From the IMG/VR virus record IMGVR_UViG_3300046819_000040, positions 1 through 25,562 of that record: 25,562 nucleotides of DNA, one strand, 5' to 3'. The stretch comes from a virus. The stretch's first letter is position 1. Each line of letters begins with the position of its first letter. The translations under genes were made by a program, and so were the position numbers. The notes beneath the pieces are model-generated. The model was given only the letters and a program-made list of their open reading frames with translations, ran no database searches and was not told the origin of the DNA. Shown in pieces: positions 5,418 through 25,562 of the stretch.

Positions 5418-7106
5418 TTACCTCATTAAGTCTCTAATAAAACCAGCATAGGTTTCTCCGCCGTTTGCTGATTCCCATATGTCACCACCTTCAACCATAA
5501 ATTCATGGTCTAAACCATCATCTATAATTGGTGTTACCAGTGTTTCATCATCAATCTGGTTCATATTTTCCAGTTGAATCTGTTTACGAATGTCGTGGTT
5601 TACAATTTCTTTAAAGTATTGTTGTGTTGATGCCCACGCAAATATAACCAAAGACATTACCAAGTCATCATTTGCGCCAAGTGCAGCTGCAAAAGAGTTC
5701 TTTTGTTGTTCAAAAGTGGTAAGTTCTGAGTAAGTATCAAAGTCATTAATAACAAGTTTGTCGCCTTCAACTAGGGTTTTTAGGTTAGAACACCCAATTG
5801 CCTTAACTTGAGGTGACATTTTTAGGCCCATTTGAATACCACGGGCAAATCCACCACTTAATTGTTGTGGTTTCTTATTGCCTGTAAATATTTTCCACAG
5901 GTTTTCGTACTCAAAATCTATATGTAATGAATCAGCAACTTGTGGATTGTTGTTGATTTCAACCAAAACGTATGCATCATTATAGTACCTTGCGGCATTA
6001 TAGATGACTGTTGGGAATAGAATTGGTGTTATTGCTGAATTGTGATATGATGCAACCTGTTTATATGGTGTCTGAGATATATCAATAACCTGAAATGCTG
6101 AATAGTCAAGATTTTTACCTTCAGATACGTCAACACAGATACAATACAGGTGGTCTGATTTAGCGTCACCGTGTCCTTCTTTGACAGGATGCTCATAAAT
6201 CTTCATGTGATCATGAACGGCCACAGGTTCCCTATAAGCAATTGTTTGCAGTTTGTAACCAGATACCAGTGTATTTGAAGAACCTAAGAACTCAGTTTCA
6301 AACTCTTGCCGGAATTGTCGTTCTGAGGTGTTGCGGATTGTTTCTTCTTTCCACTTCTCATCACGACCCGGTACTTGTGACCAGTGAATCTCAAAGTTCT
6401 TATAACCATTCTTGTTATTGATGGAATCCATCCATAACTTGTAGAACAGGTTCATGCCGTTTGGGGTAGAAACTATAATAATCTTTGTCGATTTACCAGA
6501 TGAAATAACTGGGTAAACTGAGTTGAAGAATTCTTCTGCGATGTTATTTGGAACGAACGCAAATTCGTCAAGGAATACACAGTTAAATGCACCACCACGA
6601 ACAGCTGAACTTGAGGTTGATGCCGCAATAATCTTTGAACCGTTTTCTAATTCTACATTACCTTTGTTCCATGTCACAACACCTTGTTGCAACCACATAG
6701 GTAAGTTTTCGTAAGCCAGTTGGTATTTGGCAAGAATATCACGTGCCAGAGAACCTTTGTTCGCCAGAACAGCAATGTTTTGTGTATCTTGGAAGATCGT
6801 CATCCACAACAAATATGCAACGGATGTTGTTGTCTTACCTACCTGACGTGGACATTTTGTGATAGAAAAACGATTCTCATGATAAACCTTAATCATGTCC
6901 TTCTGGAAGTCCCACATCTTGAACTTCATTAGACCAACGTCAACGTTTACGATGGTGATGTAGTTTTCGGCAAAATATACGGGATCTTCAGAACATCTGA
7001 TATATTCATCCAGTTGTTCTTGTGTGTACTTTACATCTACACCCGCTTTCTTTAGTAACGGGTTGTCCCTATACGAGTCTTTGGAATTCAAATCATATGT
7101 TGTCAT
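5418..7106 (-). CDS. 17: Terminase large subunit gp17
   Basis: This 562-residue protein is the T4-type packaging motor and nuclease (T4 gp17 is 610 aa). The ATPase domain shows Walker A CPRQVGKTT at 85-93, Walker B plus catalytic Glu in VFLDEF at 177-182, and the coupling motif IVSTPNG at 211-217. The C-terminal RNase H-like nuclease shows the acidic residues D326 (CVDVSEG), E383 (VEINNN) and D480/D481 (GANDDLVMS). All expected catalytic residues are present, so it should be active. It cuts concatemeric DNA and drives it through the portal. Its ATG overlaps the stop of the HNH gene (ATGA), and only a weak GGAA site precedes it, so it probably depends on translational coupling to the upstream gene. 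Confidence 0.97.
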   Translation of the reverse strand: MTTYDLNSKDSYRDNPLLKKAGVDVKYTQEQLDEYIRCSEDPVYFAENYITIVNVDVGLMKFKMWDFQKDMIKVYHENRFSITKCPRQVGKTTTSVAYLLWMTIFQDTQNIAVLANKGSLARDILAKYQLAYENLPMWLQQGVVTWNKGNVELENGSKIIAASTSSSAVRGGAFNCVFLDEFAFVPNNIAEEFFNSVYPVISSGKSTKIIIVSTPNGMNLFYKLWMDSINNKNGYKNFEIHWSQVPGRDEKWKEETIRNTSERQFRQEFETEFLGSSNTLVSGYKLQTIAYREPVAVHDHMKIYEHPVKEGHGDAKSDHLYCICVDVSEGKNLDYSAFQVIDISQTPYKQVASYHNSAITPILFPTVIYNAARYYNDAYVLVEINNNPQVADSLHIDFEYENLWKIFTGNKKPQQLSGGFARGIQMGLKMSPQVKAIGCSNLKTLVEGDKLVINDFDTYSELTTFEQQKNSFAAALGANDDLVMSLVIFAWASTQQYFKEIVNHDIRKQIQLENMNQIDDETLVTPIIDDGLDHEFMVEGGDIWESANGGETYAGFIRDLMR

Positions 7107-7663
7107 ATTGATCGTTTTTTCCTACCATTATTATACATTCTTAACCAATTTGAGAAGTTACCTAAAGACATTTCTTTTCTATCGAATATTCTACAAATAA
7201 CTTTAGGTTTTGGTTTGCTTAATTTTTTCTTGTGTTCTTCTGTTTTAGGTTTTCTGAGTTTATTTTTTATTTCTTCCGACTTTTCTTTACCGTGCAAATC
7301 TTCAAATGAACGGCCGACTAACGATAACCTTTTTTTATTACTTGTTTCCTTTGACTGTTTTTTTCCGTATAAAGGACTGTCTTTTCCTCTATTTTTATAA
7401 TTTGGATTTTTATTTCCTGTCTTACCAAAATTGGGATTATTTTTGCCTTTATTAGCCAGTGATTGGGCCATTTTTGTGGCCTCAGAACATGTTATTTGTC
7501 CACTTAAAGATTTCCAAGCACAATAATCCTGCCATCTGCCGTGTTCTTCCCACAACAATTTGTGCACTTCTGCGTGTTCTTTAACAGACAAACGTACTAA
7601 ATTTGATGGTTCATTTGTTCCACCAATATGTTTTGGTACTATATGGTGTACGTGATAAGTCAT
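7103..7663 (-). CDS. HNH homing endonuclease with NUMOD3-like repeats
   Basis: This 186-residue protein has an HNH nuclease core at its very N-terminus: HVHHIVPKHIGGTNEPSNLV (4-23) supplies the first His pair and the Asn, and LSVKEHAEVHKLL (25-37) the last His. Residues 70-100 hold NUMOD3-like DNA-binding motifs (GKNNPNFGK, GNKNPNYK, GKDSPLYGK). The lysine-rich C-terminal part (KNKLRKPKTEEHKKKLSKPK) is probably a DNA-binding tail. It is a free-standing homing endonuclease, a selfish gene that cuts alleles lacking it and spreads by repair. It lies between the two terminase genes and overlaps both by 4 nt (ATGA). Its base use is more AT-rich and Lys-rich than its neighbours, consistent with transfer. 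There is no sign of an intron or intein. Confidence 0.85.
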   Translation of the reverse strand: MTYHVHHIVPKHIGGTNEPSNLVRLSVKEHAEVHKLLWEEHGRWQDYCAWKSLSGQITCSEATKMAQSLANKGKNNPNFGKTGNKNPNYKNRGKDSPLYGKKQSKETSNKKRLSLVGRSFEDLHGKEKSEEIKNKLRKPKTEEHKKKLSKPKPKVICRIFDRKEMSLGNFSNWLRMYNNGRKKRSI

Positions 7664-9961: not shown

Positions 9962-10735
9962 TTAGTTCATTAAGAATTCTAGTGGTGCGAAATAATTGGT
10001 AGACATTTCTTCTTCCAACTGTTTGATTTCTGCTTCAGCTTCTTCGAAGATTTTATCTCCGTTGAGTGTTACACCACCTGGTAATTGTAGACCAGAAAAC
10101 TTTTTGAGGTTGTTGCCCCAGTTTTTCTTGATGAGTGCGGTTGCATACTCTTTCAACCAACGGTCATTCCACACCTTGTCGTAAACGTCAGGGTTGATAG
10201 AGGCATAACATTCAGCAACAACGATTGTTCCGACAGGTGCCTCAGATGCACCCCAAGCCCAGTCTATATACAGACGTTGCATATGTCTCTGGAACCGTAT
10301 AGGAACTTCGCCTGTGAACATCAACTCTAAAGAACGTAGATGTTGTTGGGTTAATGTGTAATTGATGTAGGATGCAGAGGTGAAGTCGTACAATTCATTC
10401 AGACGCAGTTGGTATCTTAGGTCAAACATGTTGATTGATGTTGACGAATCTTGAATTGGAAAGATTCTAGTTATACCAACAATTTCCATTGGATTATCTT
10501 GAGCATCTGTAACGGTACTCAAGTCTAAAAACTTTTGGTCAATATCTTGTTGTTGTACTGCTTTGATGTAATATACTTTCTGTAACCCATCAAAATGGTA
10601 ATCTTGCCAGTATTGTAGTGCGTCATCGATACGATCTTCAATTTGTTCATCGTCCAGATTGAGTTCAATGACCGGCGCACCTAATCTACGTAGGCAATAA
10701 TTTTTAAAATCTGTTCTGTTTGTTATGGCCGACAT
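9962..10735 (-). CDS. 13: Neck protein gp13
   Basis: This 257-residue protein matches the shorter aquatic-phage form of T4 gp13 (309 aa), a head-completion protein of the portal-neck joint. FKNYCLRRLGAPVIELNLDD (10-29) followed by QIEDRIDDALQYWQDYHFDG is the strongly conserved N-terminus. The C-terminal half has WLKEYATALIKKNWGNNLKK followed by the LQLPGGVTLNGDKI motif, then an acidic helix. The ATG has an AGGAG site with good spacing. A perfect late promoter box lies 21 nt upstream, inside the end of the APS-kinase-like gene. This suggests that the gp13-gp14-gp15-gp16-HNH-gp17 block can be transcribed separately from the accessory cassette. Confidence 0.93.
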   Translation of the reverse strand: MSAITNRTDFKNYCLRRLGAPVIELNLDDEQIEDRIDDALQYWQDYHFDGLQKVYYIKAVQQQDIDQKFLDLSTVTDAQDNPMEIVGITRIFPIQDSSTSINMFDLRYQLRLNELYDFTSASYINYTLTQQHLRSLELMFTGEVPIRFQRHMQRLYIDWAWGASEAPVGTIVVAECYASINPDVYDKVWNDRWLKEYATALIKKNWGNNLKKFSGLQLPGGVTLNGDKIFEEAEAEIKQLEEEMSTNYFAPLEFLMN

Positions 10736-10744
10736 GGTAATCTC

Positions 10745-11167
10745 CTATGATTGGATATTTATACCATGAATAATTATATCTGCCCAACGCACCGCATCCT
10801 GTTCCGTTACTCTAAAATTGTATTTTTCTGGTGGAACAAACATTTTGTTAGTATCTTCAAATCTGCCTTGAGAAATGGTATCAACCCAGACAGTAATATC
10901 TGCATCAAATATATCCCTCATCTCTTGTAATGGTGCAACAAAATCACAGATTTGTATTTGACAATTTGTACTGTCGCAAAGTTCCCTCATTCGTTTACTT
11001 TGGTTTATTCTACCTTGTAAACTAAAGTCCCAATCATCAAATTGTTTTCTCACATCATCGGCATTAAACCACACAGTACCACAACCAATGTCACACAGTT
11101 GTTTTTGTAGTTCTTTAGCCAGGGTAGTTTTACCTGACCCTGGCAATCCCATAATTAGAATTTTCAT
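10745..11167 (-). CDS. cysC: Adenylylsulfate (APS) kinase-like P-loop kinase
   Basis: This 140-residue protein looks like a compact APS kinase, which phosphorylates adenylylsulfate to PAPS, the universal sulfate donor. Seen: P-loop GLPGSGKTT (7-15); FNADDVR (34-40), equivalent to the family LDGDNVR; DWDFSLQGRINQSKRMRE (45-62), equivalent to the DLGFSxxDRxENIRR helix; CDFVAPLQEMR (74-84), equivalent to the FISPxxxxR segment; and a short lid GRFEDTNKMFVPP (101-113). It is shorter than cellular CysC (about 170-200 aa) and lacks the usual RDxKGLY lid. Its start overlaps the stop of the glycosyltransferase fusion by 1 nt (TAATG). With the nearby sulfotransferase, PAPS supply is a coherent role. 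Another small-molecule P-loop kinase is possible. Confidence 0.75.
   Translation of the reverse strand: MKILIMGLPGSGKTTLAKELQKQLCDIGCGTVWFNADDVRKQFDDWDFSLQGRINQSKRMRELCDSTNCQIQICDFVAPLQEMRDIFDADITVWVDTISQGRFEDTNKMFVPPEKYNFRVTEQDAVRWADIIIHGINIQS
10756..10763 (-). promoter_or_regulatory. T4-type late promoter box TATAAATA before gp13
   Basis: The minus strand reads TATAAATA exactly, 21 nt upstream of the gp13 start codon, with the AGGAG site between. It lies inside the 3' end of the APS-kinase-like coding sequence. The spacing is nearly the same as for the perfect box at 1335-1342. It would start the neck and packaging block. Confidence 0.6.
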
Positions 11168-13983
11168 TAATCTAAAGACTTTTTAAATGTACTCAAATAT
11201 TTGAAGAATAGTTCTGTTTCTTCTTCTGGATCCAAAACATAGAACTCAATGACTTGACCATCATTTGGATTTTGGAAAGCAACCTTTTCTGGTAACTTAC
11301 CTTTACAAGCGATGCCGTTAACTGCACAATATGAATAGAAGTGTTGTACTACACCTATAGATAGGCGAATCGTCCAGTCGTCTCCTGATGGTTTGAGAAC
11401 TTCGTGCCAATACTTCAATCCAAGCTCTAATAGTCCAAGATTTGGATTAGGATGACCAGTAATAAACTGACTCCAGTAATCGACAAGTATATAATGTTTG
11501 GCAAATATCTTATCTGGATAAACACGAACATTCTTGTAGATCAGGTCAGCATTTCTACCAAGAGATTTGGTTTTCAACAAACTTTGATTTGCTAAACCAT
11601 AGTGTAGAACCCATGCATAATCTTGCCAGAACATCTTGTCGCCAAGGAAGTCATTATCATTCTTACTTGGATATTCATGGACTACGCCAGTGAACCGAAT
11701 ACCAGCAGACTTCTTGAACAAACGGTCATGCATCACATCAACATTAATACCCATCTTATGTGATTGTACAGACATGCATTGTTTCTGTTTGAACAGTAGA
11801 CCATCATAGTAATCACTTAACAAGAATTTGAATACTGTTTCACCGTTTTCCAGTTGTTCATCAGCATCAATCCAGAAGATAAAATCACCAGATGCTTGAT
11901 CAACAGAATAGTTTCTTGCACGAGCAAAGTTGCCAAGACCATCTTCTTCTTCCCAAACAAGGTCATAAACTTTGTTGGTAAACTTAGATGCGATACGTTT
12001 GGTGTCATCGGTTGAACCAGTATCAACAATAACGATTTCATCAGCAAAGTCTGTTACTGACTTCAAACAACGAGATAGATTATCTTCTTCGTTCTTGACA
12101 ATCATGCAACAGGAGATAGTCTTGTATGGACGAGACTTCAACCACTTGTCTTGGTAATCAGGTTCATTAAATTCAATAACATCATCTTTAGATGCATTGA
12201 ACCAGAATAACCAGTTATCACACGGCTCACCACGGCGACCCTTAACTTTAACGTTGGCCGTTGCAACACTTAGATTGACGTTGGCAAAGATTTTCTTTAG
12301 ATCATTCAACTCAAAGTGATGCACATGGTGAATCTCTTTGTTATCCTTCTTCATAAATTCCCAAGGACCACGTGGAACTGTGAAGTAGAATAGGGTGTTC
12401 TCATTAGCAAGACTCATCAACATGTTGAGAAATTGTACTGTTGGTTCAATGTGTTCAAGAAGTTCGCCGATGATGACAATATCTGGTTTGAAACCATGCT
12501 TTGTAACATTGATTACATTATCACAGACATAGTTAATCTGTGGATACTTGTTCTTATAGTTTTTCTCTAAATGTTTCAAAACTGGTTCTGAACCATCATA
12601 CATTGTCATTGATGCGATGTTTGGTGAGAATCGTTTCATCAAAGGTAATGATAAAATGCCATCATTGCTACCAAGGTCGAGAATGTTTAGTTTTTTGGTA
12701 GGATCATCGTTAAGTATGTTTTCAACCAATTTAATTAAAGTTTCACTACGACCATTTAGATAAGTATCTTCGTTGCAATTACATTCTTTGAAATCACTAT
12801 ATGACATGTTATCGTGTTCTGCCTTATCAAGCATATCACGATACTTCTGGTCGCCAGTTAGTTTCCATGCTGCAACAATGTCGGAATGGTAAACAAGATT
12901 GTCAATGATCTTGTCTTTGTACTTTTTAAAACGATCTTGAAACATATTGTCAATGTAAGAATTCCAAGTCTTAGCAACATTTTCCCATGAGTATGGTTCA
13001 ATTAGTTCTTTACCCTTGGTAACTTCTGATTCATATACTTCGCCTTGATACTTGTCAAGGATTGCCAAGAACTTCTGCACATATTCATCTGAACCATATT
13101 CAGCATCAACCTTCGTGTCAGTCTTGACCGTTTCTGACATGGCGAACTTATCTGAAGTAACGATCAGGCACTTGTTGTACTGTGCTTCCATTGCATTGAT
13201 GCAAGAAATTTCTGGGAAATCTGTTGGGTAAACCATGTAAGCACATGATGCCAACAATTTATAGTATTGTTGTTTTGGTAAATGACCAACTTTACGAACA
13301 TTATTTGAATATTCCAAAATACCATCAATCTCGGCATATAGTTCTTCAATTTCTTTAGGTCGACCAAGTGTATGCTCATAACCACAAATGTGAAGAACTG
13401 CATCTGGATTCTTCTCTAGAATCTCTGGCCAAATCTTCTCAAGCAATAACTTCAGACCACGTTCTGGACGTGATGAATAGATGTAGTTGTTTTTCTTCTG
13501 TTCCCAAGGAAGTGGGTTAGTTACGATTGTTTGATCATAACCATTGGAAGTTTTCCAGATCCAATCTTTTGGTTCTAGTTTATAATTCTCATTGAACAGA
13601 TCCCTATGAAAATCACTCAAACAGAATACTCCATCCGCAACACCCAGAGCATCCTTAAAGTTATTTGTATCAATGTCGTGACACCAAAGAATGTTCATCT
13701 TTGTGTCTAGTGGCAGAGCAAGGAAGTCCGTGAAACGACTGACAATCAGAGTATCAAACTGTGATTTCTCGTCACCTAGGTATGCTTGAATCGGTCGATA
13801 CTCAACACTATCGTAGATGCCTGGACGATCACAGTTACAGTAAACGGTAACTTCGTTGTCTAGTTTAGCAAGTTCTCTTGCCATATAAATGAGAGCAGAT
13901 TCTGACCCACCTAGTGCTTTCTCATATACGGTGTTACCATTAAAATCTAAACCAGCCGTCACAAATCCAATAGTCTTTTTCAT
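11167..13983 (-). CDS. Trifunctional GT4 glycosyltransferase - methyltransferase - GT2 glycosyltransferase
   Basis: This 938-residue protein joins three enzymes. Residues 1-355 are a GT4-type GT-B glycosyltransferase: GGSESALIYMARELAKL (25-41), SSRPERGLKLLLEKIWPEI (170-188) and a Glu-X7-Glu pair E258/E266 (FPEISCINAME). Residues about 405-600 are a class I SAM methyltransferase: motif I LDLGSNDG (435-442) and GELLEHIEP (506-514). Residues about 620-938 are a GT2-type GT-A transferase: CCMIVKNEEDNLSRCLKS (625-642), VDTGSTDD (653-660) and the DXD-like WIDADE (704-709). No membrane segment is seen. It overlaps the upstream TPR-GT9 gene (ATGA) and the downstream kinase gene (TAATG). It probably builds and methylates a glycan in the cytoplasm; substrates are unknown. 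Confidence 0.88.
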   Translation of the reverse strand: MKKTIGFVTAGLDFNGNTVYEKALGGSESALIYMARELAKLDNEVTVYCNCDRPGIYDSVEYRPIQAYLGDEKSQFDTLIVSRFTDFLALPLDTKMNILWCHDIDTNNFKDALGVADGVFCLSDFHRDLFNENYKLEPKDWIWKTSNGYDQTIVTNPLPWEQKKNNYIYSSRPERGLKLLLEKIWPEILEKNPDAVLHICGYEHTLGRPKEIEELYAEIDGILEYSNNVRKVGHLPKQQYYKLLASCAYMVYPTDFPEISCINAMEAQYNKCLIVTSDKFAMSETVKTDTKVDAEYGSDEYVQKFLAILDKYQGEVYESEVTKGKELIEPYSWENVAKTWNSYIDNMFQDRFKKYKDKIIDNLVYHSDIVAAWKLTGDQKYRDMLDKAEHDNMSYSDFKECNCNEDTYLNGRSETLIKLVENILNDDPTKKLNILDLGSNDGILSLPLMKRFSPNIASMTMYDGSEPVLKHLEKNYKNKYPQINYVCDNVINVTKHGFKPDIVIIGELLEHIEPTVQFLNMLMSLANENTLFYFTVPRGPWEFMKKDNKEIHHVHHFELNDLKKIFANVNLSVATANVKVKGRRGEPCDNWLFWFNASKDDVIEFNEPDYQDKWLKSRPYKTISCCMIVKNEEDNLSRCLKSVTDFADEIVIVDTGSTDDTKRIASKFTNKVYDLVWEEEDGLGNFARARNYSVDQASGDFIFWIDADEQLENGETVFKFLLSDYYDGLLFKQKQCMSVQSHKMGINVDVMHDRLFKKSAGIRFTGVVHEYPSKNDNDFLGDKMFWQDYAWVLHYGLANQSLLKTKSLGRNADLIYKNVRVYPDKIFAKHYILVDYWSQFITGHPNPNLGLLELGLKYWHEVLKPSGDDWTIRLSIGVVQHFYSYCAVNGIACKGKLPEKVAFQNPNDGQVIEFYVLDPEEETELFFKYLSTFKKSLD

Positions 13984-15347
13984 TCAATGTCCTTCAGAAC
14001 AAGTTTCAATTCATCGTATGCTTCTTGCCAAGTCTCTGGCGTCACCTGACGAATCAATCGTAAATTATCACCATAAAAACTTGAGTTATGTTTACCTTCT
14101 GCCCAAGTGTAGTATTCCATAATTGGTATCATAATGATTGTTCTTTTACCCATTGCACAAGCAGCATGTGCCACTGAAGTACAAGAAGTAATCACTAAGT
14201 CTAGATTATGTATAACGCCTAATAAATCTTCAAATGACTCTAACTTATTACTTAGGTCAACTATATTTTGATTGTCTGAAAGTTGTTCCATACCAACATC
14301 ACGTTGAATAGAATATAATGACCAATCATTGCCTTCTGGCATTGCTCCAATTATCTTTGATAGATTAACTGTACGATGCAATTCGTGGTCATATCTTGGA
14401 TTGCCAGACCAACGAAGTCCTACTTTGAACTTACCATCAAGTTTGTGTTTCTCTATATATTCTGGTTTTGCTTGAAGGTAAGGACCATCCCACAAATCTT
14501 CAAAGTCAAGATTGAGTGTGTGTGGCAAATCCATCATTGGAGTCCACATGTCATAATCAGACTTCTTATAATCTTTCTGAGTAATTTTTTTATCAAACGG
14601 CAAATGGTCATAAACTGAAGAAATGCCGTGCACTGTCAACAAAGACACCTTTATACCCATGGCCACAACTTTTTTTACAAAACGAATGTTGATTATTTCA
14701 TCACCAATACCACCTTCAGCAACAAACAACACATGTTTACCTGGTTGTGGTTTTCCATCCCATCTTGGTAGTCCGTCGGTTACCTTAGAATATGAACCGA
14801 ATACATTTAGGTTACGGCCAATGGCAAGATGATCCATACCCGCTTTGAAATTGCCTTCAGCAATTAGATGAACACCCTTATTGAAAAGAATAGAGTCTGA
14901 TGTTCTAGAATCAAACTTCCAAATGTTTTCTTCCAATTTTTTAACGATCTCATATGATTCTTGTTTACGGTTGCAAGCAAACAATGCAGCTGAATAATCC
15001 AACATCATTTCATCTTCAATATCGGAATTATTTGCCATATATTCAAAACACTCCAAAGCTTTTGTTGGTTTGTTAGCACTCAAATATACTTTACCTAGAT
15101 TAGCAGACATTGCCACTTTTTGCTGGGTGTCCTCACACAGTTCTAAGGCCTTCTCACCGTATTCTATTGCCTTAATAAACTTTTTGGCTTTATTGTAACC
15201 ATAGAAATAAAGGTCGTAACCAAGTAGATTTAATGGGACAAGTTTCTTATTCTCAAACAGTTCCAGAAAATCTACCAGTTCATCAAGAAGATCACTACGT
15301 GCAAATACATCAATAGTGACCTTTACTGCATCATATTCGGTCATCAT
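13980..15347 (-). CDS. TPR protein with GT9-like (heptosyltransferase-fold) glycosyltransferase domain
   Basis: In this 455-residue protein, residues about 35-190 are TPR-like helix pairs (AIEYGEKALELCEDTQQKVA, LGKVYLSANKPTKALECFEY). Residues about 200-455 resemble the GT-B fold of family GT9 and related TPR-linked transferases: VLFVAEGGIGDEII (206-219), VGLRWSGNPRYDHELHRT (309-326) and DLVITSCTSVAHAACAMGKR (383-402), which forms the sugar-nucleotide pocket. TPR-GT fusions of this type are common in aquatic bacteria and phages for surface glycan or protein glycosylation. It starts 1 nt after the sulfotransferase stop; the second Met is an alternative start one codon later. It overlaps the trifunctional enzyme by 4 nt. 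Donor and acceptor cannot be read from the sequence. Confidence 0.82.
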   Translation of the reverse strand: MMTEYDAVKVTIDVFARSDLLDELVDFLELFENKKLVPLNLLGYDLYFYGYNKAKKFIKAIEYGEKALELCEDTQQKVAMSANLGKVYLSANKPTKALECFEYMANNSDIEDEMMLDYSAALFACNRKQESYEIVKKLEENIWKFDSRTSDSILFNKGVHLIAEGNFKAGMDHLAIGRNLNVFGSYSKVTDGLPRWDGKPQPGKHVLFVAEGGIGDEIINIRFVKKVVAMGIKVSLLTVHGISSVYDHLPFDKKITQKDYKKSDYDMWTPMMDLPHTLNLDFEDLWDGPYLQAKPEYIEKHKLDGKFKVGLRWSGNPRYDHELHRTVNLSKIIGAMPEGNDWSLYSIQRDVGMEQLSDNQNIVDLSNKLESFEDLLGVIHNLDLVITSCTSVAHAACAMGKRTIIMIPIMEYYTWAEGKHNSSFYGDNLRLIRQVTPETWQEAYDELKLVLKDIE

Positions 15348-15348
15348 A

Positions 15349-16128
15349 TTACTTCATGTGTTTCCAAAAGTCCATCTGTTCCAGATGGTTGAATAGATCA
15401 GGTGGTAGAATTGTTTGGCGATTCTTGAACTCCACCTTTTGACGTACATGGTGTAGACCTTTAATGTTCATGTCGGCATCAAATTCGTCCCATGAAGCTT
15501 CAACACTTTCAAAGTCATGTTCAAACCATGGTTCACCAATAAACTCATACAGTTTTTTCATTACCAGTTTTGGATTCTTTGCCAGTTGATCGTATTGAAC
15601 GATCATAACGTTTTCTTTCTTTGGTCCAAACAATGCCTGTTTAACACCATTGTAAGCAAAACCAATAAATGCACCGTCACTAGTTAGATATTGTGCTCTA
15701 GTATATACCGAAACACCAGCACCTTCTGGGAACATCAGTGGTACATCGTATGGGTTTTTAGCAAATAGTTGTTCAAACGAATCGATGATCCATGGAATAG
15801 AACGAATACAAACGATTGTTTTTGCCTTTGGATAAAGATCGGCAAGCAATGGTGTAAAGTAAGTCCAACCACGATTGGTATCAAATACTACTGGTTTTGA
15901 ATCTTTGTAGTATGTGTCGGCAATCGAATGTATGATTTCTTTGCGTTTCTCAGCATCACACTGAAAACGATAACCACCTTGTGATTGTGATTCTTCTATG
16001 ACGGCTCTTGTGAATCTTGCCAAAGGACCAGAAACAGATGCTTGAAACTTAGGGTTCTGGTTAAGAATAGAAGAAAGTAGTGTTGTGCCTGAACGTGGTA
16101 GTCCAGAAATAAAGTGAATCTTTTCCAT
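15349..16128 (-). CDS. PAPS-dependent sulfotransferase
   Basis: This 259-residue protein starts with IHFISGLPRSGTTLLSS. The GLPRSGTT loop (9-16) is the 5'-phosphosulfate-binding P-loop of PAPS sulfotransferases, and VCIRSIPWIIDSFEQL (106-121) is the 3'-phosphate-binding segment with Arg109 and Ser117. Length and layout fit the broad bacterial/phage sulfotransferase family. It moves sulfate from PAPS to a hydroxyl or amine on a glycan, lipid or protein. There is no signal peptide or membrane anchor, so it acts in the cytoplasm. It has its own AAAGG ribosome site and a possible late box 34 nt upstream. The same gene run holds an APS kinase-like protein that could make its donor. The acceptor is unknown; a glycan made by the neighbouring transferases is the natural guess. 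Confidence 0.88.
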   Translation of the reverse strand: MEKIHFISGLPRSGTTLLSSILNQNPKFQASVSGPLARFTRAVIEESQSQGGYRFQCDAEKRKEIIHSIADTYYKDSKPVVFDTNRGWTYFTPLLADLYPKAKTIVCIRSIPWIIDSFEQLFAKNPYDVPLMFPEGAGVSVYTRAQYLTSDGAFIGFAYNGVKQALFGPKKENVMIVQYDQLAKNPKLVMKKLYEFIGEPWFEHDFESVEASWDEFDADMNIKGLHHVRQKVEFKNRQTILPPDLFNHLEQMDFWKHMK

Positions 16129-16161: not shown

Positions 16162-16169
16162 TATTTATT
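16162..16169 (-). promoter_or_regulatory. Possible late promoter box AATAAATA before the sulfotransferase
   Basis: The minus strand reads AATAAATA, one base off the late consensus, 34 nt upstream of the sulfotransferase start and overlapping the stop codon of the upstream gene. It lies at one of the few real gaps (36 nt) in this cluster. It may give the sulfation-glycosylation genes their own late start. Confidence 0.35.
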
Positions 16170-16791
16170 GTTGTTCCTGGACGACTTTTGGTTTGAGAAA
16201 GAAAAACTGTAATAGTCTGCCAGTTTCTTTTGTGTCACCATAAACATCACTATAAGAATGGAACATACCTGGTCTAAACAAAATAAGTTTGTTGAAACCA
16301 AATTCAATTCTGGTAGTTTCTTGCCATTTGTTTTCCCAATCCTGGTTTTCCGATTGTATGAAGTTTTCAAAATCTTGATATGAATTGATGTTGTATTTTT
16401 GAAATTCTGCTTGGTTATTAGGAACTTCATCCCAACCAGTTTTATTGTTTTTATAGAATTTTAAAAAATGTGGTTGCTCAGATTTACTCAAGCAAACAAT
16501 ACCAACCCACTGTGTCATTAAGTCAGGAAAGTTGGTGCATACTGATTGTAATGGTAAATCTTGTTGCGTGTTAATTACAAACGTACCAGAATTTTGTACA
16601 AACTCATATGAGTTTTCTGGTACGTTTGTGTAATACTCCATCTGGCGAAGCATATCTTCATTAGCAAAGTTCATAGGACAAATTTGTCCTTGAATAAAGT
16701 TCTCATTTTTTGAATACTCTAATGATGAAAATAATGTATTCATCTGGTGTGGATCACTATAAAATCCATCACACATAATAATCTGTTGCAT
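16165..16791 (-). CDS. 2-oxoglutarate oxygenase-like protein (DUF6445-like), possibly without the first two iron ligands
   Basis: This 208-residue protein resembles DUF6445-type 2OG-Fe(II) oxygenase-fold proteins. The distal part fits well: KLILFRPGMFHSYSDVYGD (168-186) supplies the late His (H178), and GRLLQFFFL (191-199) the 2OG-binding Arg (R192). WVGIVCLS (95-102) and the FYKNNKTGWDEVP segment (112-124) match the core strands. The expected HxD pair before the Trp should fall near residues 85-87, where the sequence reads CTN. So two iron ligands may be replaced, and the protein may be inactive or have another role. This rests on alignment by eye. It starts 3 nt after the preceding stop. 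Similar phage genes occur next to tail-fibre genes. The gene contains a striking nested inverted repeat. Confidence 0.6.
   Translation of the reverse strand: MQQIIMCDGFYSDPHQMNTLFSSLEYSKNENFIQGQICPMNFANEDMLRQMEYYTNVPENSYEFVQNSGTFVINTQQDLPLQSVCTNFPDLMTQWVGIVCLSKSEQPHFLKFYKNNKTGWDEVPNNQAEFQKYNINSYQDFENFIQSENQDWENKWQETTRIEFGFNKLILFRPGMFHSYSDVYGDTKETGRLLQFFFLKPKVVQEQQ
16577..16629. repeat. Nested inverted repeat: 15-bp perfect arms around a 16-bp palindrome
   Basis: The left arm ACAAACGTACCAGAA (16577-16591) is the exact reverse complement of the right arm TTCTGGTACGTTTGT (16615-16629). The 23-base loop holds a further perfect palindrome, AAACTCATATGAGTTT (16600-16615, sharing one base with the right arm). 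The whole lies in the coding region of the oxygenase-like gene, where the arms encode TNVPE and NSGTFV. Perfect 15-bp arms this close are very unlikely by chance. It could extrude as a cruciform or fold as a strong mRNA hairpin. Confidence 0.85.
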
Positions 16792-16794
16792 GTA

Positions 16795-17526
16795 TTACTC
16801 CAATATAATTTGTTCCAATTCTTCGATTGTTGTTTTGCTATCAATTTCAGATACTTTATCCGATTCCCAATCGAAACACGATTGTACATAATCAACAACT
16901 TCATCCACAACGGTTTGTAATTCGGCTTTGTTAAGTGTTACGAAACCTTGAGGAAATTTCCACTGTGCTGAATAGGTGTCGGTTGCAAAAACAAGTGCTT
17001 GTGTGTAGGCTGTTCTTGAACCTCTATCAGTATATATTGTTAAATTATAAGGACCGACCTGGCGATCAATTGAAGCATTTTCTTTTGTCCAACGATTGTT
17101 GGCCACAATTTGTTTTAGATTGTTTTTTGCTGTATTGATTGACAAATCCTCAGCATCATAATACATAATATAATTATTATATTGTGTATTTGTTTGTTCA
17201 ATAATTTCCTCTATTGGTTCACCAAGTTCATTTATATTAGTGACAGTGGTTTCATATGTTACTGTGTATGAAGGTTCACCTGAACCACCATACTTAAATT
17301 TTGGTCCAACCAAAGTTTCAAATAACGGATTAATTGTTGGAGGAGTTTCATCGAGTGTAGGTAATAGTTTTACCGTATCCGATAAAATTATAGGTTCAAC
17401 AATAGGATCGTTTGGCAAAGAAGTTTCAATACCACAATCTTGTTGTATAAAGTATTCGAAGTATCTTGGATTCCAATCTCTTGGTCCTGTTACAATTCTT
17501 TCATTTTTCAATAATGTGTATAACAT
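16795..17526 (-). CDS. DUF4376-like tail-fibre-associated/assembly protein
   Basis: In this 243-residue protein, the C-terminal part (about residues 140-235) resembles DUF4376, a domain found in phage tail-fibre assembly and fibre-associated proteins. Visible elements are the RQVGPYNLTIYTDRGSRTAY segment, the WKFPQGFVTLNKAELQTV segment and the ending YVQSCFDWESDKVSEI. The N-terminal half is proline- and threonine-rich and unrecognised. It has an AAGGAA site and lies 9 nt after the last RCC1 gene, the usual place for a small fibre-assembly gene directly downstream of a fibre gene. That placement supports the idea that the RCC1 genes encode fibres. It could be a chaperone or a minor component; the sequence does not decide. 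Confidence 0.65.
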   Translation of the reverse strand: MLYTLLKNERIVTGPRDWNPRYFEYFIQQDCGIETSLPNDPIVEPIILSDTVKLLPTLDETPPTINPLFETLVGPKFKYGGSGEPSYTVTYETTVTNINELGEPIEEIIEQTNTQYNNYIMYYDAEDLSINTAKNNLKQIVANNRWTKENASIDRQVGPYNLTIYTDRGSRTAYTQALVFATDTYSAQWKFPQGFVTLNKAELQTVVDEVVDYVQSCFDWESDKVSEIDSKTTIEELEQIILE

Positions 17527-17535
17527 TGATTTTCC

Positions 17536-18675
17536 TTAGTAAACAATTTTAGATGCCATAGCGTGTGATCCGTTACGAACTTGATTCCAATTTGTGTCTG
17601 TGCCGACTTGAACAGGACTATATCTATTGGTCGTATCCGATAAACCCAATTGACCATTTTCATTATATCCACAAGCCCACATAGTTCCATCATTCTTTAT
17701 AAAAGATACTGAGAAAAGTGATGAATGTACTTTATTCCAATTAGTCAATGATCCTACTTGTGTTGGTGATGAACGATTTGTCATGTCTGATAGACCTAAT
17801 TGTCCTCTACTATTCCAACCCCAAGACCAAAGAGTGCCATCCGTTTTTATTGCATATCCAGCAAGGGTGCCAAAAGACACTTTGCACCAATCACTTAATG
17901 TTCCAATCTGTATAGGTGATGAAACTGTTGTGTCACTATTATTTCCTAAAGAACCAAATGGATTATATCCCCAAGACCAAAGTGTTCCATTAGTCTTAAC
18001 GGCTAAAACTGCTGAATAACCACATGAAATTTCCGACCAATTTGTTTCTGTTCCAATTTGTACTGGACTAGAAATGTAAGTTGTGTCTGTGTTAGCACCT
18101 ACGGCACCTAGTCTATTGTCTCCCCATGCCCATAATGTACCATCTGTTTTGATAGCAACAACTGAAGGATACGTTTGGCATAAACCAGTGGAAATTTTAC
18201 TCCAATTATTTAATGAACCAACTTGAACAGGACTGTATCTAGTTGTACTATCTGATAGTCCTAATTGTCCAGATTGGTTTCTTCCCCATGACCAAAGAGA
18301 TCCATCTGTTTTGATTCCTGTACTAAATTCATATCCAGCTTCAACTTTACTCCAAACTCCGTTTGTTCCTACTTTTACAGGACTATAATAACCTGTGGTG
18401 TTGGATGTTCCTAATTGTCCATAGTTATTGTAACCACATGACCACAAAGTACCATCAGACTTTACTAATAATGAATGTATTCCACCAACAGCAAAATTTA
18501 TATAATTATTACCTGTTCCCAACTGAATTGGGCTGATATATGAGGTGGTATTTGATAATCCTAGTTGACCCACTCCATTGTTACCCCAAGACCATATGTT
18601 TCCACTCGTCTTGAAAAGAGACTTGGACATATATCGGTTTCTTAGGTCATTTGAACCTTGATAATTGTAGGTCAT
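17536..18675 (-). CDS. RCC1-repeat protein with seven repeats (single beta-propeller)
   Basis: In this 379-residue protein, after about 24 unique N-terminal residues (MTYNYQGSNDLRNRYMSKSL) there are exactly seven RCC1-type repeats of about 50 residues. Each is centred on a blade strand such as SDGTLWSCG, TDGSLWSWG or NDGTMWACG, followed by YGQLGLSDTTNRYSPVQVG-like loops and a Trp-containing strand. Seven is the number of blades in a canonical RCC1 propeller, so this is probably one closed propeller. The unique N-terminus may attach it to another virion part. It overlaps the giant RCC1 gene by 4 nt (ATGA) and is followed by the DUF4376-like gene. A fibre tip or adhesin role is inferred from context; RCC1 propellers generally bind other proteins. 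Confidence 0.85.
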   Translation of the reverse strand: MTYNYQGSNDLRNRYMSKSLFKTSGNIWSWGNNGVGQLGLSNTTSYISPIQLGTGNNYINFAVGGIHSLLVKSDGTLWSCGYNNYGQLGTSNTTGYYSPVKVGTNGVWSKVEAGYEFSTGIKTDGSLWSWGRNQSGQLGLSDSTTRYSPVQVGSLNNWSKISTGLCQTYPSVVAIKTDGTLWAWGDNRLGAVGANTDTTYISSPVQIGTETNWSEISCGYSAVLAVKTNGTLWSWGYNPFGSLGNNSDTTVSSPIQIGTLSDWCKVSFGTLAGYAIKTDGTLWSWGWNSRGQLGLSDMTNRSSPTQVGSLTNWNKVHSSLFSVSFIKNDGTMWACGYNENGQLGLSDTTNRYSPVQVGTDTNWNQVRNGSHAMASKIVY

Positions 18676-21600
18676 GCAAGTTCTGCCAGAATTGTGTTGG
18701 ATTGTGCAAACAAACTAATGTAGTTATTTATAGTACCAACTTGAATTGGGCTTGATCTGTGTGTATAATCACCTTGACCAAGTTGACCGTATGAGTTGTT
18801 TCCCCATGCCCATAATGTGCCATCTGTTTTTAGAGCTGTTGAGAAGGTATCACCACAAGCAATTTGCAACCAATTGGATAATGTTCCGACTTGTGTTGGT
18901 GATGAACGGTGTGTTATGTCAGACACACCCAACTGACCAAATGAGTTATTACCTTGTGCCCATAGAGTATTGTTACTATCAATTCCTAACCAATGTGCAG
19001 TACCAGCTGCAACTTTACTCCAATTAGATTTTGTTCCAAGTTGAATTGGTGAATAAATTGTAGCATACAATCTTCCCAACTGGCCAAGATCATTTCTGCC
19101 CCAAGAGTACAATTTACCTTCACTATTCAAAGCAAATGTTGAAGATGATGTTGTGCGTACTGACGACCAATTACTTAGGTTTCCTACTTTTGTTGGAATC
19201 CAATAATGTGTTTGATTTGATTGTGCAAGTTGACCGTATGAGTTGTTTCCCCATGCCCATAATGTGCCATCAGATTGTGTTGCAAGTGTGTTGTTATATC
19301 CACACACAACTTGTGACCAGTTGGTGTAAAGTCCGTAACCCAGTATTACTGGTGCATAGTATGTTGATGCTAATGTGTTGTTCTGGCCTAATTTACCTTG
19401 ACCATTGTACCCCCATACCCAAGCATTTCCTGAAGAATCTAATGCTATTGGACTAATAACGGATGTTGCGTCTATATCCACCCAATCCGTTTTTGTTCCA
19501 ATTTGTACTGGACTGGATCTGTTTGTTAGATCAGATACACCAATTTGGCCATAGTTATTGTAACCCCAAGTCCATAGTGTGCCGTCAGTTTTAATAGCAA
19601 AAATATTTGAAGATGATTGCCCTGAAATTTTTGCCCAATTACTTTCTGTTCCTATTTGTGTTGGAAATGATGCAAAAGTTACATTGCCTATTCCCAGAGC
19701 TCCATATGTGTTTATACCCCAAGCCCATAATGTACCATCAGTTTTCAGACCTGTTGCACCATAACCAGCAACTATTTGAGACCAGTTACTATCTGTACCA
19801 ATTTGAACCGGAGTTGATCTATTTGTCAGATCACCTGTTAGTAATTTACCAAAAGCATTGTTACCCCATCCCCATAAAGTTCCATTACTTTTTATTGCAA
19901 ACGCAGCATCACGAGCTGAAAATTGGACCCAGTCGGTGTCTGTTCCGATTTGCGTTGGCATATAACCATTTGTCCAAGGACTAGACGTATTCAATCCACT
20001 AAGGCCTTGACTTCCTGTACCCCAAGTCCATAAAGTACCATCCAGTTTTAATGCAAAACACGCATTTCCTGCATTGTAAGCTATTGACCAATCAGAATAT
20101 GTTCCGATCTGTATTGGTGTTGATGTGGCACCTTGAGTTAAACCAAATTGATATGCTCCAGCTGGACCCCAACCCCAAAGAGTGCCATCAGTTTTTGTTG
20201 CTATATTTGTAGCTGCTTCGCCAGAAACGCTTTTCCAATTATTCAGAACACCCACTTGAATAGGTGATGATCTATTTATTAAATCACCGACACCAAAACT
20301 TCCTAATGAATTGTCTCCACCAGTAACAAATAATCTATTGGACAAATCTATTAAAAATGATGTATATCCTGTAGAGGTTACTTTTGAATATGTTAGTGCT
20401 TGAGCACCAACTAAAACTGGACTATAATAGTGTGTTTGGTTATTTTGTCCTAATTGTCCATATGAGTTGCTACCCCATGTATATAGATAACCACTATTAA
20501 TTGCTGCACTGTGTTGTGATCCACCTGATGATTTTAACCAACCATTTGATGTTCCTATCTGAGTTGGATTGTAGATGTGTGTTCGATGACTTAAACCAAG
20601 TTGTCCATATGAATTGTTGCCCCAAGTCCAAAGAGTACCATCATTCTTGATAGCAGTAGCATGAAATTGACCAGAATTGATTGATGATAAGTCAGTAACG
20701 TAACCACCACCAACAAGTGTTGGTGTAGTTAGGTGCATTTGGTTTCCTTGACCTAATTGTCCATATGAGTTGTTACCCCATGCATACAGATAACCATTTG
20801 AATTGATAGCTACTGATCCATATGCAGACCACCCCGATGATGGATATACCCAATTACTTAATGTACCAATTTGTACTGGACTGTATCTATTTGTCGTATC
20901 TGATAGCCCCAATACACCATATGAATTTAAACCCCAACCCCAAAGAGTGCCATCAGTTTTTGTTGCTAAAACCATTTCATTACCAGAGGCGATATTGTTC
21001 CAGTCTGTTAAACTTCCTACCTGAGTTGGTGTTGATATGTGTGATCCTGTGTTTAATCCTAATTGGCCATAGTTATTGATGCCCCAAGACCATAGTGTTC
21101 CATCATTTTTAATGGCGAAAGAAGAAAGATTGGATGCACATATTTTATTCCAATTGGTGTCTGCACCAACTTGTACTGGACTCAATCTATTTGTCGTATC
21201 TGATAGTCCAAGTGAACCATAGTTATTGTAACCCCATGCCCATAGGCTGCCATCATTTTTAATGGCTAAGGTATGTGAACCACTAGAAGTTTTATTCCAA
21301 TTGGTGTCTGCACCAACTTGTACTGGGCTGGATCTATTTGTTAGATCAGATAACCCTAATTGTCCTTGGGCATTATTTCCCCATGTCCATAATGTGCCAT
21401 CAGTTTTAATAGCAGAAGTGAACCAAGATCCTTCAGAGACTTGACTCCAGTTACTAAGTACACCAATTTGTACAGGTCTATATCTGGTTGCTGTATCACT
21501 TGTTCCTAAATTACCATAGGCATTAGAACCCCATGCCCACAATGTACCATTTGACTGTATTCCTAAAACGGATTGATTATATACAGAAACTTGATTCCAA

Positions 21601-24600
21601 ATACTCGATACACCAACTTGTGTTGGACTAGACCTATCTATTGCATCAGATAAACCTAATTGGCCATTAGCATTAGAACCCCATGCCCACAATGTACCAT
21701 TTGACTGTATCGCTACATTGAAGCTTATTCCAGCCTCAACTTGTTTCCATTGGTTTGTTTCATTACCCACTTGAACAGGAATACTTTGTGTGTATGCATT
21801 ATTTTTGGCCAGTTGGCCAAATGAGTTGTTACCCCAACCCCATAAAGTACCACCACTATTAACAGCAAAAGAATGAAATTGGCCAAGCGACACTTTTGAC
21901 CAATTATTTTTTGGTGCATTCCATCCTAAAGTTACTGGAGAATTGTAAACGGTGTTGCCGTTATTTTGACTTAATTGTCCATTACCATTCAAACCAAAAA
22001 CCATTACCGTATCATCTGTCAAAATTGCCGCGGTGTGTCTTAGGCCGGCCGAAACTTTTTTCCAATTGTTTAATCCGCCCACTTGTACAAAACTATAGAC
22101 ATTGGTTGAATTTGATAGACCTAATTGTCCTTGTGTATTGTAACCGCAACCCCATAATGTACCATTAGATTGTATTGCTACTGTGTGTTGATAACCACAT
22201 GAAACTTGTTTCCACAAATCAGTACCAACTTGAGCAGGACTTGATCTGTTGGTCAGATTTGATGTTCCTAATTGACCTCTGTTATTGTAACCCCATGTCC
22301 ATAAAGTTCCGTTTGTTTTAATGGCCGCATTGTGGTTTTGTCCGGATGAAATTTGACTCCAATCACTCAGTGCACCAATTTGCACAGGACTATATCTACT
22401 TGTTGTATCAGATAAACCTAGTTGTCCGACTAAATTGTAACCCCAACCCCACAAAGAACCATTAGATTTGATAGCTAGAGTGTGTTGATAACCACAAGAA
22501 ATTTGACTCCAATCGGTTAATGTGCCAACTTGAACTGGACTGGAAAGTATAACATTGTTAGATTGGCCTAATTGTCCGTACTGATTTCTTCCAAAAGACC
22601 ATAGTGATCCATTGGTTTTTATAACCATTGTATGATAGTAACCTGCAGCAACTTGTGACCAATCACTTAGATTACCAACCTGAACCATTGTCAATCTATT
22701 TGTTGTGTCAGATAAGCCTAGTTGTCCTGAGTTATTGTAACCACATGTCCAAAGTGTTCCGTTGGATTGTAAACCAACTGTATGAAAATAACCCCCAGTC
22801 AATTGTGACCAGTTGTTAGCGGTTCCAATCTGAACCATAGTTGATCTATTTGTTAAATCTGTTGTACCTAATTGACCTTTGCTGTTGTAACCACATGTCC
22901 AAAGTGTTCCGTTGGATTGTATGCCTGCGGTATGGAAACCAGTTGCAAGAATATCTTTCCAATATTCAATACTATTACCAATTAATAATGGACTAGGATT
23001 GACTCCAATTATATTATTTTGTCCTAATTGTGCATATGAGTTGTTGCCCCATACAAACAATTCACCATCAGAATCTATAGCTGCACTATGAAAAACGTTT
23101 GCGTCAATTTCAATCCAGTTATTTGATGTGCCTACTCTTTGTGGATTAATACTAGAAATTTGATTTGATGTGCCTAATTGACCATAAGAATTTAAACCAT
23201 GTGACCACAGAGTTCCATTACTATTTAATACTAAACTGTGTGAAGTGCCAGGTGCAGAACTTTTTACTGATAACGGACTGAATATTGCAGGTTGTACAAA
23301 AGGTGTTGTTACATCAGTTAATTGACCGAAAGAAGTTACACCCCAACCATACAATGTTCCGTCTGTTTTGGTGTAAACACCCCAACCACCACCAATAGAA
23401 GCTTGAGTTACACTTGTTGCAATAGGAGTTGGTGTTGAAATAAATTGACCATCACCTATTGCATTGTTAGAATATACTGAATACCCGTATGAGACAGCAC
23501 ATTGGTAATTTGGCACCCAATTTGTATTATCGCCAAATATGTATAGTGTTCCTGATGTGTCCAGTACAGAAGACCAGGATACGTTTTGTGAACCCACTGG
23601 GAATGTTGACCAATTATTTGCAGAACCTACTTGGTTTGCATAAGATCGATATGATGTTGAATCATAACCTAATTGACCAAAATTTGGGCTTCCACCCCAA
23701 GAGTATAGTTCACCATTTGAATTTATTGCTGTGCTGTGATAGTCACCGGAACTAATTGATGCCCAATTTGATAAATTGCCAATTTGGATAGGACTAACAA
23801 TATTGGCCACGGTGTTTATACCAACTGCTCCAACTGATCCTTGTCCCCAAGACCATATTGTGCCATTGGTTTTAAGTGCTATTGTATGGTTGTATCCGCA
23901 AGAAACTTCATTCCAATCGTTTGACATGCCGACTTGGATCGGACTGGATCTATTCGTGTTATCATTTAAACCTAATTGTCCGTAGTTGTTAGAACCCCAG
24001 ATCCATAGTGTTCCGTCGGATTGAATCGCTGCTGTATGAAAATAACCACATGAGAATTTTACCCAATTATTAGAAGTTCCCACTTGAGATGGTGTTGATC
24101 TGTTTGTCACATCACCTAAACCAAGTCTACCGTTACCGCCGTTACCCCAAGCCCATAGAGTACCATCAGAATTTAATGCAGCACCAGCATAACCTTTATG
24201 ATATGTGTCAACTTTTGTCCACGCACCTGTTTTTATCTGCACAGGAGTGGACATTGCGGCCGTGGTGTTTAAACCTAATCTAATACCATCATTGTTTAAA
24301 CCCCAACCCCACAATGAACCATCGTCACGTATACCAAATGAATATGTGTATCCACAAGCAACTTTCGACCAATTACTAACGGTGCCAACTTGTACTGGTG
24401 TTCCTGATGGAGATCCTCCTCCGTAATTACCCCAGTCATTTCTACCCCATGCCCAAAGAGTGCCATTTGATTGGATACCCTCCATAAAATAACTGCCGTT
24501 GCCAATAGTTTTCCATAAACTAGACCCGACTTGACAAGGACTGCTTTGATTAACTGTTGTGTTTAATCCTAAGTTATTCTGTAAAGCGTTGGTGTAACTA

Positions 24601-24803: not shown

Positions 24804-24807
24804 CTTT

Positions 24808-25562
24808 TTATAATCCGTAATCTAATTTTGATGCCTGTAAACCTGATGATTTTAAACCTAAACAACCAACAGCATTATAACCAAAACAAAAAACTTTTCC
24901 ACTACTATCTATTGCTATTGTGTGATATGATCCACATACAACGTTTTCCCATTGGTTTGATGATCCAATTTGAACTGGACTATATCTGTCTGTAGTGTCG
25001 CCTAATCCTAGTTGACCATAGACATTATATCCCCATGCCCATAATGTGCCATTAGATTGTATGGCTATACTGTGATTATAACCACAGGAGATTTTTTTCC
25101 ACAAATCTGTTCCGATTTGAACTCGACTTGATCTATTTGTTGTGTTGCTTGATCCCAATTGACCATAAGCATTATAACCCCACGACCAAATAGTTCCGTC
25201 GTCTTTTAAAGCCAGAACGTGAGAGTTTCCTGTAGAGACTTTATTCCAATAAGTTGTTGCAATTTGTGTTGGTGAAGTGGATGTTGCTGTTGTGTTATTA
25301 CCTAATTGACCATAAGCATTAGCACCCCATGACCATAATGTACCATCGGACTTTATGGCTATCGAATAATATGGTCCACAAGCTATATCATTCCATGTGT
25401 AACTTGTTATTTGTACCATACTGGAAAGGTTTACGGTCGTTGAATTTCCCAACTCATATGAATTGTTTCTCCCCCAACCCCATAGAGTACCATTGCTGTT
25501 TAGTGCAAAATTAAAAAAAGCACCAGATGAACATTTTGTCCAAGATTTGTCTGGTGCTATTT
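24808..25562 (-). CDS. RCC1-repeat protein, 5' part beyond the window
   Basis: The frame is open to the right edge, so the true start is outside the window. A TTG near 25452 would be a possible start only in isolation, because RCC1 sequence continues upstream of it (FALNSNGTLWGWGRNNSYEL). Five blade strands are visible: NSNGTLWGWG, KSDGTLWSWG, KDDGTIWSWG, QSNGTLWAWG and DSSGKVFCFG. The C-terminus ends abruptly in the last repeat (GLKSSGLQASKLDYGL), without the usual SPVQVG and Trp-strand half, which may be supplied from the N-terminus when the propeller closes. It ends 4 nt before the giant RCC1 gene. It probably forms part of the same fibre or adhesin complex. Its full length is unknown. Confidence 0.85.
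   Translation of the reverse strand, partial: IAPDKSWTKCSSGAFFNFALNSNGTLWGWGRNNSYELGNSTTVNLSSMVQITSYTWNDIACGPYYSIAIKSDGTLWSWGANAYGQLGNNTTATSTSPTQIATTYWNKVSTGNSHVLALKDDGTIWSWGYNAYGQLGSSNTTNRSSRVQIGTDLWKKISCGYNHSIAIQSNGTLWAWGYNVYGQLGLGDTTDRYSPVQIGSSNQWENVVCGSYHTIAIDSSGKVFCFGYNAVGCLGLKSSGLQASKLDYGL

Follow-up and report, generated by a model that had tools for sequence, protein, structure and literature searches.

The stretch of DNA analysed here (the window) spans one whole contig, 25,562 bases long, of a T4-like phage found in an uncultured sample. Its portal protein is 54-57% identical to those of cyanophages, and neck, tail and terminase proteins are present according to PHROG profile matches. 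A preliminary description of the sequence had placed a cassette of four minus-strand genes with tight junctions between RCC1 fibre genes and gp13, an arrangement borne out by the open reading frames and the family assignments:

16128-15349, minus strand: sulfotransferase gene (open frame, 259 aa)
15347-13980, minus strand: TPR protein gene (open frame, 455 aa)
13983-11167, minus strand: GT4-methyltransferase-GT2 fusion gene (open frame, 938 aa)
11167-10745, minus strand: APS-kinase-like gene (open frame, 140 aa), a short form without nucleotidyltransferase domain
9962-10735, minus strand: gp13-like neck protein, bordering the cassette on its downstream side (head-tail adaptor PHROG, 2.8e-44)
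16165-16791, minus strand: gene of 208 aa preceding the cassette, with weak matches to a minor-coat PHROG and to DUF6445
16795-25452, minus strand: RCC1-repeat fibre genes and a DUF4376 fibre gene, candidate substrates
16162-16168, minus strand: ATAAATA box resembling a late promoter; the sulfotransferase gene starts 40 nt downstream of it
10756-10763, minus strand: TATAAATA box resembling a late promoter, within the 3' end of the kinase gene and ahead of gp13

The sulfotransferase and TPR genes are separated by 1 nt, while the TPR and fusion genes overlap by 4 nt and the fusion and kinase genes by 1 nt. The kinase gene lies 9 nt from gp13 and the sulfotransferase gene 36 nt from its upstream gene. 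Around the cassette the RCC1 fibres are found upstream, and gp13, gp14, gp15, TerS, HNH, TerL, sheath, tube and portal follow downstream. Three RCC1 genes are consecutive in the window; one of them (18672-24803), near the contig end, encodes a 2,043-aa protein made up almost entirely of RCC1 repeats (31 repeat matches). The HNH gene between TerS and TerL (7103-7663) is homing endonuclease-like. Values of dN/dS of about 0.3 or less, obtained where dS could be estimated, indicate purifying selection, dS being saturated in most comparisons.

The cassette had also been described as lying under late-type boxes. This assignment stands for ATAAATA, which occurs on the coding strand at all eight of its sites and lies 27-62 nt before gene starts at six of them, a non-random placement (p=3e-7, uniform-placement null), whereas the number of exact TATAAATA copies in the window is by itself at chance level (3 found versus 1.7 expected).

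The sulfotransferase passes the Pfam cut-off for Sulfotransfer_3 (1.2e-16, 62.1 bits versus 27). Its 5'-PSB motif (8-SGLPRSGTT-16) is conserved, and the 3'-PB residues R109 and S117 are found in 29 of 29 aligned relatives, so that the earlier assignment as a PAPS sulfotransferase is well founded at the level of family and motifs. The closest PDB sequences, although weak matches, are tyrosylprotein sulfotransferases, and the protein may therefore possibly sulfate protein tyrosines.

The second gene was originally taken to encode a TPR-GT9 transferase. A TPR protein with a glycosyltransferase-like C-terminus is indeed encoded, its TPR matches lying below the Pfam cut-off, but membership of GT9 could not be confirmed, as Pfam, NCBIfam and PDB profiles make no call for this half of the protein. 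In relatives, Glyco_transf_9 is matched only below threshold (0.02-0.2), and "GT9" thus denotes a resemblance of the C-terminal domain to GT-B/GT9 glycosyltransferases. Single proteins in which Sulfotransfer_3 is joined to just this domain are observed directly in three relatives (L009:4358-6208, L014:3884-5650, L024:3169-4944), which points to joint action of both domains on one glycan. For the third gene the predicted GT4-methyltransferase-GT2 architecture was recovered in full, with Glycos_transf_1 (7e-10, residues 159-289), Methyltransf_23 (9e-10, 412-574) and Glycos_transf_2 (2e-18, 624-714) all passing their Pfam cut-offs. The core motifs are in place as well (SAM motif DLGSNDG at 436, GT2 motif DAD at 706, GT4 motif E-x7-E at about 258). 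A scan with the full-length fusion protein retrieved only two further loci. In other relatives (L002, L003, L005 and others) NodU/TobZ-type carbamoyltransferases lie upstream of the kinase gene and adjoin it, which suggests glycans that are carbamoylated as well as sulfated.

The kinase passes the Pfam cut-off for APS_kinase (3.8e-11, 43.7 versus 21.1), albeit over profile positions 5-91 of 152 only, and fails that of the NCBIfam APS-kinase equivalog TIGR00455 (39.5 versus 138.7). With its AlphaFold model (pLDDT 94) as Foldseek query, the top 24 PDB matches are all APS kinases (TM about 0.8), and APS kinases likewise rank first (8e-12) when the family profile is compared with the PDB. Positions aligned to the CysC elements DGDxVR, LGF, R and FISP are near invariant, the first half of the APS site thereby being kept, and D37, R40, F48, R53, F76 and P79 are invariant in the family. 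Relative to CysC, N is changed to Q56 in the pocket, and S to A or C. Moreover, about 17 residues of the APS lid, KKARAGELRNFTG, corresponding to the C-terminal lid KKARAGxxxxFTG of CysC, are absent, and an invariant DTN (DTNxxF) is found instead. The 140-aa protein would hence resemble an APS kinase by its predicted fold and by half of its site, equivalog membership not being granted; the earlier label APS-kinase-like holds for the fold and the first-half site elements, but not for the lid segment or the TIGR00455 cut-off.

The absent lid and the failed cut-off are in keeping with an alternative, in our view unlikely, in which the kinase does not act on APS. Instead, together with a nucleotidyltransferase frequently found beside it in relatives (see below), it would make another nucleotide-activated compound, such as an NDP-sugar or polyol, a 3'-phospho-CDP-phosphoramidate-like donor or an NAD- or CoA-type cofactor, and its linkage to the sulfotransferase would reflect a shared glycan locus. 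A precedent that we count in favor of this alternative is Campylobacter Cj1415, an APS-kinase relative acting on CDP-phosphoramidate. Against it, the closest folds and profiles are those of APS kinases rather than PSTK, NRK or gluconate kinase, and the residues of the first half of the APS site are retained.

On two separate contigs (L087 and L088) the gene order is identical to that of the window through gp13-14-15, with identities of 85% for the sulfotransferase, 70% for the TPR protein, 69% for the fusion protein and 61% for the kinase. One further relative and its near copies (L047) carry the cassette in a different setting, the sulfotransferase being 82% identical, and the 208-aa gene (16165-16791) is retained beside the cassette in L085-L087. 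Judged from sequence, the four genes are one unit. Three close cassettes (L085, L089, L090) lack the kinase.

To choose loci independently of the cassette, gp13 was used as anchor, and loci with at least 3 kb upstream were kept. Kinase and sulfotransferase occur together in five of these loci, neither occurs in 44, and none is discordant; after deduplication the counts are 3/0/0/38 (Fisher p=9e-5). Co-occurrence of the two genes beside fibre genes, the check proposed at the outset, is thus observed directly, as are gene content and synteny. When loci are centred on the sulfotransferase, the kinase lies downstream in nine of the 12 that could be evaluated. Sulfotransferases of distinct types are located within 30 nt of the kinase in L055, L061, L066, L192 and the SAR86 locus L223, and on the kinase tree the label for proximity to a sulfotransferase requires 14 changes.

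The concordance in gp13-anchored loci, together with the overlap of the cassette genes within one operon, argues against the kinase being an auxiliary metabolic gene for sulfur assimilation that stands beside glycan genes by chance. Furthermore, only hosts relying on PAPS reductase need PAPS for assimilation. We regard this explanation as very improbable, even though viral cysC is listed as an auxiliary metabolic gene and reported as such in metagenome papers (PMC12766990).

Across the wider kinase family the linkage is looser. Sulfotransfer_3 is above cut-off in only 13 of 50 kinase-bearing viral contigs, and a profile search of the flanks of 80 kinase loci showed the nucleotidyltransferase without any sulfotransferase in 46; several other sulfotransferase types had been missed. 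The kinase loci without a nearby sulfotransferase, which are the majority, speak for a substrate other than APS. They imply that PAPS is otherwise used in these phages, that sulfotransferase types were missed, or that some members act on something other than APS. Conversely, the adjacency of the kinase to several distinct sulfotransferase types and, in SAR11, to AprBA favors APS. The kinase family was not found in the isolate cyanophage genomes S-SKS1, S-SRM01 and S-SCSM1. Phages with a sulfotransferase but no kinase, that is the kinase-less cassettes and the isolate cyanophages, would use host PAPS.

The kinase has numerous relatives: IMG/VR contains at least 591, and GTDB genomes yielded at least 585 candidate stretches, among which the best 80 come almost all from SAR11 and SAR86. 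A phage-only gene was considered and ruled out, since SAR11 and SAR86 carry the kinase on their chromosomes. Of 84 non-redundant kinases, 62 are fused to, or lie near, an HxGH nucleotidyltransferase of about 120 aa. Its closest known relatives are NMN and phosphopantetheine adenylyltransferases (NMNAT/PPAT-like), a kinship that again counts toward a product other than PAPS; it matches no ATP sulfurylase profile (PF01747 or CysD), and its structure model (pLDDT 76) gives weak Foldseek matches. The preliminary description had missed both this paired enzyme and the chromosomal occurrence.

Several gene neighbourhoods bear on the function of the pair. In SAR86 (L223, L188, L187) the order is sulfotransferase, kinase, nucleotidyltransferase, with an unrelated gene standing in place of the sulfotransferase in L208 and L218. 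Four SAR11 loci (L183, L184, L185, L246) carry kinase and nucleotidyltransferase and later AprB and AprA (APS reductase). In all four, for example in L183:7995-12804, the pair is followed by a TENA-family gene, a gene without family assignment, AprB and AprA; for L183, AprBA is confirmed by Pfam and NCBIfam. Further SAR11 and SAR86 kinase loci adjoin DddP-like and DMSP-demethylase-like genes. On the side of a non-APS substrate, the fused form adjoins gmhA in L205, and a HAD/NT5C phosphatase lies upstream in loci within L057-L071. In that other phage group (L057, L059, L060, L069, L071) the HAD/NT5C-like phosphatase directly precedes kinase and nucleotidyltransferase; it is possibly a PAP phosphatase, or else a hint of a different pathway.

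Variant forms of the kinase were also encountered. In L008:3595-4206 and L070:2035-2652 it is followed by an in-frame membrane segment, which is confirmed as DUF2061 in L008 and resembles it in sequence in L070. The protein encoded by L149:6088-6981 resembles the window gene 16165-16791 in its N-terminal half and is a degenerate kinase copy in its C-terminal half; it lies directly upstream of an intact kinase-nucleotidyltransferase gene. A Pelagibacter polysaccharide-type locus (L182:3551-10827) contains a canonical CysC-like kinase, a short-lid kinase and a sulfotransferase-like gene.

Among 117 SAR11-order genomes the nucleotidyltransferase is present in 84 and Sulfotransfer_3 in 82, yet ATP sulfurylase PF01747 in only six. 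Across these genomes the nucleotidyltransferase shows no significant association with the sulfotransferase (62/22/20/13, p=0.12), perhaps because the genomes are incomplete; the counts therefore fit a compact PAPS pathway without proving one. CysD was rejected as a SAR11 candidate, the PF01507 matches being partial, mostly located in frames of about 520 aa and read as GMP synthase, an identity demonstrated directly only for a phage protein. Tentatively, and with rather more doubt than confidence, we propose that the kinase and the 120-aa HxGH nucleotidyltransferase form an unrecognised minimal PAPS synthase that is widespread in phages as well as in SAR11 and SAR86 and whose sulfate adenylyltransferase is not related to known ones, and that phages use the kinase together with sulfotransferases and glycosyltransferases on fibre glycans.

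As noted at the outset, the window encodes no ATP sulfurylase, and we found no partner nucleotidyltransferase in it either. Nor did a profile search, with a profile that does detect SAR11 genomes, find the nucleotidyltransferase in 27 contigs from relatives that have the short kinase or no kinase; these contigs are mostly fragments but include one of 322 kb with two sulfotransferases. APS would therefore have to come from the host, and phages with the short kinase, including that of the window, would depend on host APS.

With regard to the target, the cassette might, instead of the virion, alter LPS, capsule or exopolysaccharide on the surface of the infected host cell, for instance to block superinfection. 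The combination of a sulfotransferase with glycosyltransferases is typical of surface polysaccharide loci, and in hosts the kinase has homologues within loci of the polysaccharide type (L182, L205). On the other hand, the cassette lies within the cluster of late structural genes, flanked by fibre and neck genes and behind a late-type box, and relatives share this position, which is also linked to RCC1 fibres. Going by family assignments without a dedicated scan for hydrophobic segments, we recognised no membrane polymerase or flippase among the window genes. In a background set, both the TPR gene (p=1e-4) and the sulfotransferase (p=0.002) are associated with RCC1 fibres. Only gene position and this RCC1 association would decide for the virion, and we judge action on the host surface to be the less probable case, at about the same low level as a non-APS substrate.

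Taken together, we favor, with a probability of roughly 0.6, a late glycan-building and sulfating module with a divergent APS kinase, an APS-making nucleotidyltransferase partner in most relatives and the RCC1 fibres as likely target. The four genes would be expressed late as one module, in which the TPR-GT-like protein and the GT4-methyltransferase-GT2 fusion would build and methylate a glycan that the PAPS-dependent sulfotransferase would then sulfate. The divergent short-lid kinase would convert APS from the host ATP sulfurylase to PAPS and, as we propose, thereby render sulfation independent of the host PAPS pool. In most relatives the 120-aa HxGH nucleotidyltransferase would make APS from ATP and sulfate and form a compact PAPS-producing pair with the kinase, and the neighbouring RCC1 fibre set would probably be modified. 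We infer four of these elements, namely that APS is the substrate, that the nucleotidyltransferase forms APS, that a glycan is sulfated and that the fibres are the target. The original interpretation is partly backed, by co-occurrence, PAPS motifs, the APS-kinase fold and the sulfotransferase-GT fusions; action of the kinase on APS, GT9 membership of the TPR protein and the virion as target stay putative. What phage sulfotransferases do has been stated to remain unclear (PMC10580990), and the cassette provides a concrete four-gene hypothesis for it, namely a sulfated glycan on fibres or host surface made with phage-supplied PAPS. If true, the kinase-nucleotidyltransferase pair, present in most SAR11 genomes sampled, would also explain the origin of PAPS in sulfotransferase-bearing bacteria that mostly lack a known ATP sulfurylase.

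Compared to known systems, the window-type kinase shares with APS kinase/CysC (PF01583, TIGR00455) the P-loop fold, Walker A and the DxxR, F, R and FxxP elements of the APS site. It differs from CysC in the absent lid of about 17 residues, the invariant DTN, the pocket exchange of N for Q, an identity to E. coli CysC of about 21% and, unlike CysC, the usual pairing with an HxGH nucleotidyltransferase. Human PAPSS and bacterial SAT/APS-kinase fusions similarly combine an adenylyltransferase and a 3'-kinase, fused or paired, in two steps; in the phage/SAR11 pair, by contrast, the adenylyltransferase is a 120-aa NMNAT/PPAT-like protein and not PF01747, CysD or CysN, its activity on sulfate being putative. 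In mycobacteriophage virion glycosylation, as reportedly described by Freeman et al. in 2023, phage glycosyltransferases are thought to decorate virion proteins; phage-encoded glycosyltransferases are common to both cases, that of the window being known from genes alone. To our knowledge, no sulfation or donor-supply gene belongs to the mycobacteriophage system. Phage sulfotransferases such as those of S-SKS1, S-SRM01 and OM43 phages share the Sulfotransfer_3 family and the PAPS motifs, but the window gene, unlike those of S-SKS1 and S-SRM01, is part of a glycan cassette within the structural cluster and has a kinase alongside. Our literature search found no paper in which phage sulfotransferases are connected to APS kinase or to the supply of PAPS. 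Phage sulfotransferases and viral cysC are each already known; new here is a proposed phage glycosylation system with its own sulfate-donor step.
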